Below, piece by piece: positions 31,747-62,026 of a stretch of 64,000 nt of DNA. Under the pieces are notes generated by a model that made no database searches, was not told the origin of the DNA, and worked only from the letters and a program-made list of their open reading frames with translations. The DNA comes from an uncultured Dehalococcoidia bacterium. GTDB taxonomy: Bacteria; Chloroflexota; Dehalococcoidia; Lucifugimonadales; UBA3495. The stretch spans positions 1,161,416 to 1,225,415 of the forward strand of contig OY282494.1 in the NCBI GenBank assembly GCA_958296385.1. Reading direction: 5' to 3'. Position 1 is the stretch's first letter. Every line of letters starts with the position of its first letter. The translations under genes and the position numbers were made by a program.

Positions 31747-32103
31747 TGGGGACGCGCGGGTTCGACAGGGGCGGTCTCTGACGGATTGCAAGCCGAGGTT
31801 GCTGCTGTCCTCGTTAAAAATGGTGGCGAACAAGTAACTGGCGAACGTGAATTCGCACTAGCCGCTTAAGGCGGCTACGTCTGCCGCCGGGTGGTCCGGA
31901 AACCGGCGATCAGACGTCCATATTTTCCGGGATGCTACCCTCACGACACCGATAGTCGGGGGCCATAGATTTATCGGCTGGCTGTTGCGGAATCCCGTCG
32001 GCGAGAGTCCGCAGTGGCGAGAATAAACCGCCGGACAAGCTTGTAGTACATCTGCTCAGGGAAGTTTCTGGACGGGGAGTTCGACTCTCCCCCGTCTCCA
32101 CCA
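31747..32103 (+). ncRNA. ssrA: transfer-messenger RNA (tmRNA)
   Basis: About 357 nt. The 5' end GGGGACG pairs with CGTCTCC (32093-32099) to form the acceptor stem. The T-arm GTTCGACTC and an encoded CCA (32101-32103) complete the tRNA-like domain. The conserved GGTTCGACAGGGGC lies at the 5' end. An internal reading frame ends at 31869 and encodes a tag finishing in GEREFALAA before TAA; the exact resume codon is not certain (frame upstream reads VKNGGEQVT). It rescues stalled ribosomes by trans-translation and marks the peptides for proteolysis. A strong terminator follows. Confidence 0.95.
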
Positions 32104-53913: not shown

Positions 53914-55836
53914 CTATTGCAGGCTGTTCAGATAGTCGGCGATGGCGCGGGCTTCGGTTTCGGTGGCGCCGGTGGATGGCATTGACGTGCCGGGGGCAAA
54001 CTGCTCCGGGTTAGTTAGGTATTGGATGATGTCGTCGTGCGTCCAGGCGGCCTCCCGCGCACGCAGCGCCGCTGAGAAATTATAACCGCTGACTTGGCCC
54101 GGTGCGCGCCCGATTATACCGACCAGGTGCGGGCCGGGGCCGTGCTGCTCGGCGTTCAGACTGTGGCAAACGCTGCATTGCTGGCTGAACAGCTGCTTGC
54201 CGGCCGCCGTGTCCGTACCCGAATCTCTCGCATCCGGAGTTGGCGTTGGCGCTGGCGTTGGCGTTGGGGAGATGGCATCGCAGTCAACCGAGTACACGTC
54301 ACGGCGGTTGCGGGATTCCTCATCGCAGTACATCGTGGAACGGCTCAGAAAGTACACCCGCCCGCCATCGCGCAGCAGGGCGATGCGTCCATTCGGCATA
54401 AACGTTATATCGCGGATGCGGTAGCCGATTTCGATTTGCTCGACGTACTGCACGTCCGTATCGATGCGACGGACTCGGTAGAGCCAGCCAAAAAACGAGA
54501 CCACCAGCAGGTCGTCTTGCCACAGTGGGTAATGCTGCGGGTCGTTGACGGCAAGGGCGGACAGGGCCGGCGACGGCACCCAGGCAAACGCCGGCGGACG
54601 GAAACCGTCGTGCCGCCCCAGCTCCGCATCCTTGATGTTCGGGGGAACTTCCCGGCCATACCGCACCCCGTAGGTGACCCGGGGCCAGCCGTAATCGCTG
54701 CCCGGTTCCAGCAGGTTAAGTTCGTCGCCGCCCTGCGGCCCGTGGTCGGTGGCCCAGAGGTTGCCATCGGCATCGCGCGCCAGCCCTTGCGAGTTGCGAA
54801 AGCCGATGGCCAGCGTCTCAACCTCTCCCGTTGCGATGGCGATGCGGACGAGTTTGCCCAGCTGCCGGGCGGCGTCAAACGTAGGCTCCGCCCACCAGCC
54901 GCCTATTCCCTGGCGCCCAATTATCACCAGCAGATGGTCTGCGCCGTCCAGCAACATTTTGCCGCCGGACTCGTGCCCGGCAAACCAGCGCAAAGGCAAG
55001 CAGGGTTCTGCGTCAAATATCGTCCGCCACTCCGGCATGACCGTTACGCTTGCGCCATCCCGCCGAATCGTCGTGGACGACAACCGGAACCGGATACACT
55101 CGCCGGTAAAGTAATGGTGCGTCGCAAACAGCTCGTAACGCCCGCCGCCAAGCTCTTGCAGCAAAATATCGGCAACCCGAAAGACCCCCGGACTGAAATG
55201 ATTATCGTAATCCTCATGCTCCACCAGAGACGCTGCATTCATCGGAACGTTGCCGTCAAGATATTCCACCGTTCCATCGGAGAAAACCATGGCCAGCCGG
55301 CCTTTCGTCGTAACAACGAGCAGGTCATCCCCCATCGCCTCAATGGCCCCACCGTTCCCGTAGAAACTTTCGAGCCTGACGACCTCACTCTCGAGAGCAT
55401 ACAGATGCGTGGCGAAAGCCGGGCCCTCTGCTGCGGGGACGGCCGGCGGCGCCGGCGTTGGCGCTGGCGTGGGCGTTGGGATGGGCGTAGCCGTTCGGAT
55501 GGGCGTAGCCGTTGGCGCGGGTGTTGCCGTCGGCGCGGATGTTGCCGTTGGGACGGGTGTAGCCGTTGGCGCCGGCGTAGCGGTCGGGATCGGCGGGGCC
55601 GTTGGGGCGGCGGTGGCGATTATCGTTGCAACTCCGGCGTCCGGCGGCGCCGGCCGGGGCGTAACCGCCGGTTCCTCGGAGCAGGCGGCGACGATTATTC
55701 CCAGCAGGGCGAGGGCGATAAGCCAGCGTGCGGGCGTACGGCGTGCTGCGTTCCATACGGAAAGTTGCGCGTATCCCACGCGCCTACGTTCTAATTTTGC
55801 ACGGATGGAATATGTTACAGACTGTTCAGGGTGCAT
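53914..55836 (-). CDS. lipoprotein: PQQ/glucose-dehydrogenase-like propeller fused to cytochrome c, copy 1
   Basis: About 640 residues. A signal peptide ends in a lipobox IIVAACS, followed by a long Pro/Thr/Ala-rich linker (ATPAPTATP repeats). A soluble-glucose-dehydrogenase-like beta-propeller follows (SQGLARDADGNLWATDHGPQGGDELNLLEPGSDYGWP), then a second PTPTP linker and a class I cytochrome c domain with CSVCH heme motif and the axial-ligand Met in APGTSMPSTG (codon 53980-53982). It probably passes electrons from a periplasmic or surface dehydrogenase to cytochrome acceptors. The ATG at 55836 has GGAG 6 nt upstream; an ATG at 55848 is the alternative. Confidence 0.9.
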   Translation of the reverse strand: MHPEQSVTYSIRAKLERRRVGYAQLSVWNAARRTPARWLIALALLGIIVAACSEEPAVTPRPAPPDAGVATIIATAAPTAPPIPTATPAPTATPVPTATSAPTATPAPTATPIRTATPIPTPTPAPTPAPPAVPAAEGPAFATHLYALESEVVRLESFYGNGGAIEAMGDDLLVVTTKGRLAMVFSDGTVEYLDGNVPMNAASLVEHEDYDNHFSPGVFRVADILLQELGGGRYELFATHHYFTGECIRFRLSSTTIRRDGASVTVMPEWRTIFDAEPCLPLRWFAGHESGGKMLLDGADHLLVIIGRQGIGGWWAEPTFDAARQLGKLVRIAIATGEVETLAIGFRNSQGLARDADGNLWATDHGPQGGDELNLLEPGSDYGWPRVTYGVRYGREVPPNIKDAELGRHDGFRPPAFAWVPSPALSALAVNDPQHYPLWQDDLLVVSFFGWLYRVRRIDTDVQYVEQIEIGYRIRDITFMPNGRIALLRDGGRVYFLSRSTMYCDEESRNRRDVYSVDCDAISPTPTPAPTPTPDARDSGTDTAAGKQLFSQQCSVCHSLNAEQHGPGPHLVGIIGRAPGQVSGYNFSAALRAREAAWTHDDIIQYLTNPEQFAPGTSMPSTGATETEARAIADYLNSLQ

Positions 55837-55941
55837 CTCTATCTCCATAGTATGTTATCTAAACTGCCCGGTTCGGATTGAGGCAACATCATACACCCGG
55901 AAAGGCATCATTGCTACACGCTTTGAGTAATCAGACAGACT

Positions 55942-57663
55942 CTATTGGATACTGTGCATATAGATGACGATGGCGCGGGCTTCGGCTTCGGTGGTGCTGC
56001 TTGCTGACTTAGCCGTGCCGGGGGCGAATTGCTCCGGGCTGGTTAGATACCGGATGATGTCGTCCGCCGTCCAGGGGGTTTCCAGGCCACGCAGGGCGGC
56101 CGAGTAATCATAGCCGTCGGCTGCGCCGGGCGTGCGGGCGATGATGCCGACCAGGTGTGGGCCGTCGCGGTGCTGCGCGTCGGTCAAGGTGTGGCACGCG
56201 CTGCATTGCTGGATGAACAGCTGCTGGCCGGTCGTCGTGTACGCGTCCGGGTTCGCCGCAGCGGGGGCATCCGGCGTTGCTGTTGGCGCCGGAGTTGCTG
56301 TTGGCGCCGGGCCTATCACAGCGCAGTTCAGCGCGTACACCCCGCGCCGCTCCCTGACGTCCTCAGTGCAGTACCTATCGGAACGACTCAGCAAGTGCAC
56401 CCAATTGTCATCCTGCAACAGGGCAATGCGTCCGTCGGGCAGCAGCGTTATGTCGCGGATGGAGTAGCCGACTGCGATTTGCTCGACGTACTGAATCTGC
56501 GTTCCGTGCCGGCGGATTCGGAACAATGAGGCGGCTTTGTACGACGCAACCAGCAGGTCGTCTTGCCACAGGGGAAAATGCTGCGCGTCGTTGACGGCAA
56601 GGGCGGAGATGCCCACATTCGGCACCCAGGCAAAGGCCGGGCGCTCAAAGCCGTCGTGCCGGCCGGTATCATCGTCTTTGACCAGCCGCAGGGATACACC
56701 GCCCAGGCCTTCGCCGGAGCCAACGCCGTAGGAGGCGTGGGGGTAACCGTAATCGGCACCCGCCCGCATCAGGTTCAGTTCGTCCCCGCCCAGCGGCCCG
56801 TTGTCCGTAGCCCACAGGTTGCCGTCGGCATCCCGCGCCAAGCCCGGCGAAGTGCGCAAGCCGGTGGCCAGTATCTCCGCCTCTCCCGTTGCGATGGCAA
56901 CGCGCACGAACTTGCCAATGTGCAGGTCATCCGGAATTGGCCGCTGCCCATACGCGTGGTTGCCGATGGTTACGAGTAAGTGTTCCGCCCCATCGGTCAA
57001 CATTTTGCCTCCGGAGTTATACCACCCGCTAGTACGCTCGGAACACGGTTCCGCGTCAAATACCGTTCTCCAATCCGGCCCAACGGCCCACTGCTGCCCG
57101 TCTCTAATCAGGGTAGTAGATGACAGCCGGAGCCCGACACACTCTGCGCCAAAATGGTGGTGAGTAACAAATAGTGTGTATCCGTCCTCAACTTCTTGCA
57201 GCATAATATCGGCGACGCGAAACGGAACCGGGTCAAAATCAGGACTCTCGCTCATTGCGCTCGACTGCAACGCCGCATAGTTCATCGGAACGTTGCCGTC
57301 GAGGTATGTCAAAGTGCTGTCCGGCGCTACCAGGACAAACCGGCCCTTGGGCGTAGCGACCAGCAGGTCATCCCCCACGCTTTCAATGGCCCCGCCGGTG
57401 CCGTCAAAACTTTCAAGTTCGACGGATTCGCTTTCCAGCGCGTACAGATGCGTAGCGAGTCCCGGGTTCTCAGGTTTGGGAGTGGGCGCCCGCGTCGGTG
57501 TGGGCGTGGGTATCAGCGTGGGCGTGGCTATCGGCGTAGCCGTTGGCGCCGGTTCCCCGGAGCAGGCGGCGGCAATTATCCCCAGCAAGGCGAGTGCGGT
57601 AAGCCAGACTGCGGGTGTAAGACGGACGGCGTGCCGCAGGCGGGGATTGGGCGTTATCGCCAT
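55942..57663 (-). CDS. lipoprotein propeller-cytochrome c fusion, copy 2
   Basis: A 573-residue paralog of the gene at 53914. It has a lipobox IIAAACS, a shorter PTPT linker, the same propeller (SPGLARDADGNLWATDNGPLGGDELNLMRAGADYGYP) and a C-terminal cytochrome c domain with CSACH. The residue aligning with the axial Met of copy 1 is Lys (FAPGTAKSASS, codon 56008-56010, AAG in place of ATG), so the heme ligand set is altered. It lies 105 bp upstream of copy 1 and is read in the same direction. Confidence 0.88.
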   Translation of the reverse strand: MAITPNPRLRHAVRLTPAVWLTALALLGIIAAACSGEPAPTATPIATPTLIPTPTPTRAPTPKPENPGLATHLYALESESVELESFDGTGGAIESVGDDLLVATPKGRFVLVAPDSTLTYLDGNVPMNYAALQSSAMSESPDFDPVPFRVADIMLQEVEDGYTLFVTHHHFGAECVGLRLSSTTLIRDGQQWAVGPDWRTVFDAEPCSERTSGWYNSGGKMLTDGAEHLLVTIGNHAYGQRPIPDDLHIGKFVRVAIATGEAEILATGLRTSPGLARDADGNLWATDNGPLGGDELNLMRAGADYGYPHASYGVGSGEGLGGVSLRLVKDDDTGRHDGFERPAFAWVPNVGISALAVNDAQHFPLWQDDLLVASYKAASLFRIRRHGTQIQYVEQIAVGYSIRDITLLPDGRIALLQDDNWVHLLSRSDRYCTEDVRERRGVYALNCAVIGPAPTATPAPTATPDAPAAANPDAYTTTGQQLFIQQCSACHTLTDAQHRDGPHLVGIIARTPGAADGYDYSAALRGLETPWTADDIIRYLTSPEQFAPGTAKSASSTTEAEARAIVIYMHSIQ

Positions 57664-59097: not shown

Positions 59098-59313
59098 GAT
59101 GGTACTCCTGCCTGCGGTACGCCGGACGGCAAGCCGGCATTTGGAATTGAGGGCTAAATCGTACAGTAACCGATGGCCGGAATCAATCGGAACCGCCCTC
59201 GGTCATTCTATCCCCCGCCATGGTTCCGAACGGTCGGGGTTGGAAACGGCGGGCAAATGTGATACCCTTCACAAGGTTTCAATCCGATTCTGCCCATACG
59301 GGAGGAGTATCAC

Positions 59314-59601
59314 ATGGAAGGCAAGGTTCAGATCGAGATAACCTATTGCGTGCCTTGACAGCACCACGCTACCGCCACGTGGATGGCGAACGAGTTTTTC
59401 CGGGCCTACGGTGGGGACGCCGCGATTACCATTTCCCCGCGCGGACAGGGCATCATGGAAGTGTTCCTGGACGGCGAGAAAATCTTTGACAAGAAGGCCG
59501 AGGGCAACATCTACCCCGAGCTGGGCCGCGTCCGCAAGATGAAAGAAGTCATCTCGGCACGCATCGCCAGCGCTGACCTGGCCGTAGCTGCCGACGACTA
59601 G
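59314..59601 (+). CDS. SelW/Rdx-family selenoprotein (in-frame TGA as Sec)
   Basis: Reading from ATG at 59314, TGA at 59356-59358 is codon 15, and the frame continues to TAG at 59601 for 95 residues. With selenocysteine at 15 the N-terminus reads EITYCVPU, a CxxU motif in the place of the CxxC of SelT/SelW/SelH (Rdx) proteins. The rest matches the family: TWMANEFF, and GIMEVFLDGEKIFDKKAEGN followed by IYPEL. GGGAGGAG lies 6 nt before the ATG, far better than any start after the TGA. A SECIS-like hairpin follows the TGA. Rdx proteins are thioredoxin-fold selenoredoxins. Alternatives are a nonsense mutation or a sequencing error. Confidence 0.82.
59356..59388 (+). promoter_or_regulatory. candidate bacterial SECIS element
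   Basis: After the TGA (59356-59358) a 5-bp stem CGCCA/TGGCG (59373-59377 with 59384-59388) with a 6-nt loop CGTGGA can form. The loop begins 19 nt after the UGA and its second base is G, matching the published bacterial SECIS rules (loop 16-37 nt after UGA, a G in the first two loop bases). A competing CCACG/CGTGG pairing overlaps it. Confidence 0.55.
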
Positions 59602-59622: not shown

Positions 59623-59665
59623 AAAAGCAGCCGTCGCTCTCCATCGGGAGCGGCGGCTTTGCTTT
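59623..59665. terminator. probable bidirectional terminator
   Basis: An imperfect GC-rich stem (left arm 59623-59639, right arm 59648-59665) flanked by an A-run on the left and TTTGCTTT on the right lies between the selenoprotein stop and the tmk stop. It could end transcripts from both sides. Confidence 0.6.
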
Positions 59666-60344
59666 ACGGATGCGGCGGCAGCAGCGGCCTGACCGCCTGC
59701 CACACTTGCCCGGCAATCTCATCAATTGGCCGGTTGCCCTCGATGAGCAGCCAGCGCTCCGGGTTGGCGGCGGCCTGCTGGCGAAACCCCCGGCGCGCGG
59801 CAACGTGGAACGCCATCACCTCATCCTCAAAACGGTCCGGCTCCAAGCGGCCGGTCTCCAGACAGTCGGCAACCCCGCCGGCGTTTAACCCCAACTCCAG
59901 CTGGCGGCCCTTAACCCGCCCCAGCCCAACAAACGGGTCAACGTCCAGCAGTATGGTCAAGTCGGGATAGCGGCCGCCGGTAGCAAAGTCGTTCAGCCAC
60001 GCAATGCTTTCCCGGTCAATGCCGCGCCCGTAGCCCTGATATGCCACCGTTGAGCCGGCAAAGCGGTCGGTGATGATGATGTTGCCGGCGTCCAGCGTCG
60101 GCGCGATGGCGGCGGCCACCAGTTCGGCGCGGGCGGCCTCAAACAGCAGCAGCTCGGACAAGGGCGAAAGGGCCTGCCCGTTGATAAGATACTCCCGCAA
60201 ATAGGCGCCCAGCTCGGTAGAGCCGGGCTCCCGCACCAGCGTCGGGTCGTAGCCCTGCTCGGTCAGCTGCTGGTGCAGGCGGGCGGCCTGCGTGGTTTTG
60301 CCCGCCCCGTCGCCGCCCTCAAACGCTATGAACAAACCCGACAT
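59664..60344 (-). CDS. tmk: thymidylate kinase
   Basis: A 226-residue dTMP kinase that makes dTDP. It has the P-loop FIAFEGGDGAGKTTQAARLHQQL, the DR motif (TDRFAGSTVAYQGYGRG) and a LID-type segment LLDVDPFVGLGRVK. The ATG at 60344 lies 14 bp after the R3H ATPase stop, so they share an operon with pdxT and pdxS. Confidence 0.95.
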   Translation of the reverse strand: MSGLFIAFEGGDGAGKTTQAARLHQQLTEQGYDPTLVREPGSTELGAYLREYLINGQALSPLSELLLFEAARAELVAAAIAPTLDAGNIIITDRFAGSTVAYQGYGRGIDRESIAWLNDFATGGRYPDLTILLDVDPFVGLGRVKGRQLELGLNAGGVADCLETGRLEPDRFEDEVMAFHVAARRGFRQQAAANPERWLLIEGNRPIDEIAGQVWQAVRPLLPPHP

Positions 60345-60358
60345 CGCCCTGTTCCGCG

Positions 60359-62026
60359 CTAGGGCCGGTAAATCAGCACGCCGCGCCGGGGGTCGCGGCC
60401 CCGGCTGGTTGACGCCAGGTCAAACTCCTCGGCCAGCATATGTTGCAGGCGGCGGATGTAGGGCCGCTGCGGTTCCAGCTGGACGGAGAACTCGCCGGAC
60501 AGGACACGCCGGGCGGCTTCCTCGGCCTCCGCGCGGGCGGCGGCAACCGCAGCATCGCTGGCGTCGTCGTCCGGCCGGCGGGCGGGCCGGGGCAAGTCAA
60601 TGCCCTGGTCGCGGGCCAGCGAGTTGAGAAACTCGGCGATTTGGGGCGCGGTGTTCTTGCGCAGCACGTACACCGGGATGCTGTTGTCCTCCGCAACCCG
60701 CACCAGCTGGCTGCCCCGGCGGTAGTGATTCTTGGTCGTCAGCAGCACGTTGGCCCGGCGCAGCTCGTGGACAATCTCCGCCGACACGCCCCGCTCGGCC
60801 AGCGCCGCCTCCAGCTTGTCCCGGCTGATGCCGAACAGAAAGATGCGCGAATCCAGACGCGGCCCGGTATCGCCGTCGGCGTCCGGCGCATCGCGGAAAC
60901 TGGCCGGGGGATACTGGTCATAGGCAGTTTGAGCGGCGTTGCGGCGGGACTTGCCGTTGCGCCGCCCCTGCAACTCGTTGGCCGACCAGGGGGCCTGGTC
61001 AGCGCCGCTGCGCCGGGGCGCCGCCGTGCGGGTTACGTTGCCGTCGCTGTCCATATGCCGGGCCTCCGGCGCCACCGGATAGCCCCGCAGCCACTGGTCA
61101 ACCACCTGCGCCACATCGTCGTGCACCGCCACCTCATCCCGGTCCTGGATTTCCACCACCACGTCAAAAGTCGGCGGCGCCTTGCGTTCCAGCACCGTCT
61201 TTTGCGTGCCCCGGAACCGGGCCTCCTGATCGCCGAGAGTAACCGTCTGCACGCCGCCCACCAAGTCGGACAGCGTGGGGTTCATAATGAGATTGTCCAG
61301 CGTGTTGCCGTGGGCGGTGGCCACCAGCTGCACCCCGCGCTCCGCGATGGTGCGGGCGGCGGCGGCCTCCTGCGTGGTGCCCATCTCGTCAATGATGATG
61401 ACCTGCGGCATATGGTTCTCCACCGCCTCAATCATCACGCCGTGCTGCTCGGTGGGCGTCGGCACCTGCATCCGCCGCGCGTGGCCGATGGCAGGGTGCG
61501 GAATATCGCCGTCGCCGGCAATTTCGTTGGACGTGTCCACGATGATAACCCGCTTGCGGGCCTCGTCGGCCAGCACCCGGGCCACCTCCCGCAGCATCGT
61601 AGTTTTGCCCACGCCGGGGCGCCCCAGCAGCAGGATGTTCTTGCCGCCGTAGGCCAAATCCTCAATCATCTTGATGGTGCCAAACACCGCGCGCCCCACC
61701 CGGCAGGTAATGCCCACCACGTCGCCCCGCCGGTTGCGGATCGCCGAGATGCGATGCAGCGTGCGTTCCATACCGGCCCGGTTATCGCCGCCAAACGAGC
61801 CGATGCCGTCCACCACGTGCTGCAAGTCGGCCCGGCTTACCGGGTCAGCGCCCAGCATAACGTCCCCGGTGGTGAACCGGGCCTCCGGCGCGCGGCCCAG
61901 GTCAAGCACCACCTCCAGCAGTTCGCCGGCGTTCTCCTGCTGGTTCAGGCTCTCCACAACCCGGTCGGGCAGCACTTGCAGGAGCTGTTCCAACTCATCA
62001 TTGGCCAGTTGCTCAACGGTTACCAA
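60359..62026 (-). CDS. R3H-domain AAA ATPase (SpoIIIAA/Ycf45-like)
   Basis: A 555-residue protein. It has a P-loop ATPase with GRPGVGKTTMLREVARVLADE and a downstream DEMGTTQEAAAARTIAERGVQLVATAHG, followed by a charged linker and a C-terminal region with R3H-like single-stranded nucleic-acid-binding features (LQHMLAEEFDLASTSRGRDPRRGVLIYRP). It resembles the SpoIIIAA/Ycf45-like ATPases common in Chloroflexota and cyanobacteria. The TTG start at 62026 has AGGAGG 6 nt upstream. Function unknown; nucleic acid or secretion roles are inferred. Confidence 0.88.
   Translation of the reverse strand: MVTVEQLANDELEQLLQVLPDRVVESLNQQENAGELLEVVLDLGRAPEARFTTGDVMLGADPVSRADLQHVVDGIGSFGGDNRAGMERTLHRISAIRNRRGDVVGITCRVGRAVFGTIKMIEDLAYGGKNILLLGRPGVGKTTMLREVARVLADEARKRVIIVDTSNEIAGDGDIPHPAIGHARRMQVPTPTEQHGVMIEAVENHMPQVIIIDEMGTTQEAAAARTIAERGVQLVATAHGNTLDNLIMNPTLSDLVGGVQTVTLGDQEARFRGTQKTVLERKAPPTFDVVVEIQDRDEVAVHDDVAQVVDQWLRGYPVAPEARHMDSDGNVTRTAAPRRSGADQAPWSANELQGRRNGKSRRNAAQTAYDQYPPASFRDAPDADGDTGPRLDSRIFLFGISRDKLEAALAERGVSAEIVHELRRANVLLTTKNHYRRGSQLVRVAEDNSIPVYVLRKNTAPQIAEFLNSLARDQGIDLPRPARRPDDDASDAAVAAARAEAEEAARRVLSGEFSVQLEPQRPYIRRLQHMLAEEFDLASTSRGRDPRRGVLIYRP

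Follow-up and report, generated by a model that had tools for sequence, protein, structure and literature searches.

The window, a stretch of 64,000 nucleotides from an uncultured Dehalococcoidia bacterium, contains at positions 59314-59601 a SelW-like (Rdx) selenoprotein gene that uses TGA for selenocysteine. The gene lies on the forward strand and runs in one frame from an ATG start codon (59314-59316) through TGC GTG CCT TGA to a TAG stop codon (59599-59601), encoding 95 residues. The in-frame TGA (59356-59358) is codon 15, and the TGC at 59347-59349 encodes Cys12, the first residue of the CxxU motif (C12-V-P-U15) in a read-through product that begins MEGKVQIEITYCVPUQHHATATWMANEFF. This product is matched by the Pfam family Rdx (PF10262) with an E-value of 4.4e-14 and 52.9 bits over a cut-off of 22.6, and by the NCBIfam model TIGR02174 (CXXU_selWTH) with 34.8, barely over its cut-off of 34.2. 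A ribosome binding site, GGAGGAG, is located at 59301-59307 on the same strand, six bases 5' of the ATG, and a GGAG-type site at a similar distance was found in nearly all relatives that share the same ATG start. An AlphaFold model of the product, with a pLDDT of 90.7, has the order strand-helix-strand-strand-strand-helix, the first strand (residues 5-12) leading into the CxxU motif.

The open reading frame listing for the locus under table 11 gives only a shorter frame of 72 aa, at 59383-59601. The existence of this frame favours a different reading, in which the TGA simply ends translation and a truncated protein is made from the internal ATG at 59383. A protein made from this ATG would be without the first strand and the CxxU motif, both of which are invariant in the alignment, and the good ribosome binding site precedes the upstream ATG rather than 59383. 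The internal ATG also falls on the edge of the SECIS loop described below and encodes the Met of a conserved WM pair, and such an internal start is considered very improbable. A first-pass annotation, made from the letters alone, had already placed an Rdx/SelW-type selenoprotein with an in-frame TGA in a CxxU motif here, had noted the ribosome binding site before the upstream ATG, and had predicted that automated annotation would yield the short frame from 59383. All of this holds, and all of its coordinates are correct.

Downstream of the gene, an intrinsic terminator-like hairpin (59629-59658, forward strand) lies before a convergent thymidylate kinase-like gene; one such hairpin was found where 0.4 were expected in shuffled sequences. 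The neighbouring gene (59664-60344, reverse strand) is presumably tmk, a name given by recognition of its sequence. The reverse-strand stretch 59664-62026 holds this gene followed by a predicted P-loop ATPase, and tblastn of the neighbours against the relatives' loci showed that most close relatives retain the two genes in this order next to the SelW gene. Since the SelW gene is convergent to both genes, their association is one of synteny and not of an operon. The retention of tmk in most close relatives indicates that the loci compared are mainly orthologs. Elsewhere in the window, two paralogous genes stand in tandem on the reverse strand (53914-55848 and 55942-57663). Judged by eye, their large products resemble lipoproteins and contain Pro/Thr-rich linkers, probably a domain of the sugar-dehydrogenase type and, at the C terminus, a CxxCH haem motif. 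A tmRNA gene with the tag peptide GEREFALAA is located at 31748-32103 on the forward strand.

Scanning a single genome for each species provided 50 loci encoding a relative, all labelled as Dehalococcoidia, SAR202 or Chloroflexi/Chloroflexota; two of them carry the bin names bin87 and bin22 of a study of sponge symbionts (PMC5649159). It is from these relatives that the SAR202-type lineage of the window is deduced. These relatives were assembled independently and have protein identities from 48% to 98%. One near-identical relative (L074, 6001-6263) contains a stretch of Ns within the gene, after which the frame breaks, with the TGA codon still readable. An in-frame stop could in principle arise from a sequencing error, the true codon being TGC or TGT, an outcome that the first-pass annotation had itself allowed for at 59356-59358, or it could mark a pseudogene broken at the stop; the stop itself, and nothing more, speaks for either. 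Both were rejected because TGA stands at the same codon in every relative (50 of 50), across many separate assemblies and with the protein conserved on both sides, and because the sequence 3' of the TGA is under synonymous constraint and shows covariation. The probability left to error or decay is practically negligible. In an alignment of 24 relatives, Cys12 and position 15 are both invariant, and Cys-form homologs have a Cys codon where this gene has TGA. The TGA occupies the second active-site position of the CxxC/CxxU motif, as had been claimed, and the relatives' protein sequences match on both sides of it.

The 13 codons directly after the TGA form a constrained stretch. Across 41 sequences, the window gene and 40 of its close relatives, synonymous codon entropy is 0.40 of expectation over codons 16-28 and 0.92 over codons 29-40, and all 41 have GCC at codon 21 and ACG at codon 22. 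RNAalifold places a hairpin, CGCCA-CGUGGA-UGGCG, in this stretch at 59373-59388 on the forward strand, with the stem CGCCA/TGGCG and a small apical loop, CGTGGA (59378-59383), that contains G and starts 19 nt after the UGA. Standard pairs fill 96.4% of the pair cells in 28 distinct sequences, and the outer stem pair occurs as C-G, U-A and G-C. The U-A forms arise when ACC becomes ACT and GCG becomes GCA, both silent changes at the third codon position, which indicates that the RNA has been kept and not the protein. In 500 shuffles, neither the pairing nor the covariation score was ever as high as the one observed, and the pairing is lost when the partner is slid. In more distant members of the class the hairpin lies in nearly the same place, with the loops UGGAU, AGUAU, AGUCU and AGUUU and a G within the first two loop bases. 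Single-sequence RNA folding after the TGA gave a stability not above that of shuffled sequence, the signal residing in the comparative data only. A loose hairpin rule was positive in 51 of 56 Sec and 23 of 33 Cys homologs, which is no clean separation; the Cys homologs score under this rule because the DNA is GC-rich. The argument for the hairpin therefore rests on covariation and synonymous constraint, and not on its presence. Judged by this comparative signature, the predicted hairpin is a bacterial SECIS element.

The genome, a single contig (C1) of 3,298,084 bases that is 99.95% complete, carries the complete selenocysteine machinery. A tRNA-Sec at 449534-449626 scores 66.4 bits over a cut-off of 47 and is called by ARAGORN as tRNA-SeC with the anticodon TCA (UCA). 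The genes selA (530567; 536.6 bits), selB (2124890; 357 bits) and selD (1766127; 374 bits) likewise exceed their curated cut-offs, and all four lie on the one contig. The selD gene is itself interrupted by one in-frame TGA at its active site, which reads CAGU and lies near the N terminus. Together with the PF10262 match and the conserved TGA, this machinery, sought on the suggestion of the first-pass annotation, supports the selenoprotein reading.

The same annotation had also proposed a search for further homologs with TGA. Three Rdx genes were found in the genome, each with one TGA and none in a Cys form; the second (C1:3140875) has CWDU and the third (C1:2098664) CVPU. Two family searches of the genome identified seven further redox genes (L107-L113, at C1 1066538, 2485295, 3297428, 2308195, 543524, 542633 and 3224436), each with a single TGA at an active-site position. 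Six belong to the AhpC/TSA family, one with TGGU and five with UxxC (e.g. WUPHC, WUPYC and CUVNC), and one is AhpD/CMD-like with CRYU. The genes at 542633 and 543524 adjoin each other. No TAA or TAG was found inside any of these matches. With selD, the genome has at least 11 TGA genes, a lower bound as the selenoproteome was sampled via family searches, and it is rich in selenoproteins.

UGA is reassigned in some bacteria, and it can be argued on such general knowledge that a reassigned or suppressor tRNA inserts another amino acid, e.g. Trp or Cys, at this codon. This is contradicted by the presence of a canonical tRNA-Sec with SelA, SelB and SelD, and by the location of the TGA sites at redox-active positions that are Cys in homologs. 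Most members of the searched families in this genome have no internal TGA, and UGA therefore does not serve as a general sense codon here. Reassignment is accordingly rated as highly improbable, and selenocysteine is the preferred reading of the codon.

The distribution of the two forms was compared across 294 genomes of the same class, 122 of which have Rdx and 197 selA. Selenoprotein use is therefore ordinary and widespread in the class, and the earlier view that it would be unusual in such an organism was mistaken. Among the matches listed, 53 of the 61 genomes with a TGA-form Rdx have selA; the other eight are fragmented assemblies, seven of which hold a tRNA-Sec that passes the cut-off, so that 60 of 61 have one or the other. 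Among the matches listed for genomes with the Cys form only, 17 of 54 are without selA, and 13 of these 17 are also without tRNA-Sec. A tree of 89 Rdx proteins requires about four Sec/Cys changes (bootstrap range 4-5; shuffled mean 27), its fine detail being unsure because the columns are few and some of the branches long. In one group from the same order, a Cys clade is nested in a Sec clade, and all five of its members lack the hairpin. In other genomes of the class, Cys-form and TGA-form Rdx genes adjoin each other (L146 in G190, L149 in G230, L118 in G271 and L123 in G107), which suggests duplication followed by a division between Sec and Cys.

The gene, conserved UGA, SECIS constraint, complete Sec machinery and fold computed here are almost certainly explained by a SelW-like (Rdx) protein in which UGA codon 15 is read as Sec via the SECIS element, giving a CxxU redox pair and a probable oxidoreductase. 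The UGA would be decoded by tRNA-Sec and SelB under the direction of the short hairpin just downstream in the coding sequence, with SelA making Sec from selenophosphate supplied by SelD; we infer that Sec is actually incorporated at residue 15. In the predicted thioredoxin-like fold, Cys12 and Sec15 would form the redox pair. In CxxU proteins, Sec is the attacking residue and Cys the resolving residue. Sec15 would thus attack an oxidised or electrophilic substrate, and Cys12 or a cellular thiol would resolve the intermediate. The most likely function is that of a thiol/selenol oxidoreductase, with redox chemistry and a physiological role that are putative. On the basis of the CxxU motif, a survey of the Sargasso Sea inferred a redox role, and it mentioned an interaction with glutathione (PMC1088965).

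The SelW-like family already ranks among the most common marine selenoproteins, and the present gene gives some of these abundant proteins a clear taxonomic origin. SelA and SelB have been reported for the majority of sponge symbiont bins, which span various phyla, by a study that also covers SAR202 bins (PMC5649159), and three selenoproteins were counted in Chloroflexi by an early survey covering complete genomes of bacteria (PMC1794560). Among the papers searched, none was found that describes SelW selenoproteins of SAR202. The chance is about even that SAR202-type Chloroflexota are a selenoprotein-rich lineage not so described before, given the at least 11 TGA genes of this genome, among them three SelW paralogs with no Cys form beside them, and the sister families in which a Sec-form Rdx stands beside a Cys-form duplicate without the SECIS hairpin. 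The findings point to a selenium-dependent redox repertoire in these uncultured bacteria. They also offer a clear example of a gene truncated by standard gene calling, now with machinery, conservation and SECIS evidence behind it. No new mechanism is implied.

The best Foldseek matches to the model include 2obk, 2oka, 2fa8 and mouse SelW (2npb). The Cys-form bacterial Rdx structures 2oka, 2obk, 2fa8, 2ojl, 2p0g and 3dex share the fold (Foldseek probability 1.00; TM-score by query length 0.63-0.76) at about 25-32% identity; 2oka and 2obk have CxxC, with Cys where the window protein has Sec. Mammalian selenoprotein W (2npb) has the same fold (Foldseek E 1.6e-4) at 19% identity and, like the window protein, a CxxU motif. 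In eukaryotes, the SECIS element is in the 3' UTR, outside the coding sequence (PMC1088965), and mammalian SelW differs in this from the window gene, whose hairpin is inside the coding sequence. The known bacterial SelW-like selenoproteins (PF10262; TIGR02174) have the same CxxU motif, size and fold, and a SECIS element directly after the UGA. The window protein differs from them in its source, the SAR202-type Chloroflexota.
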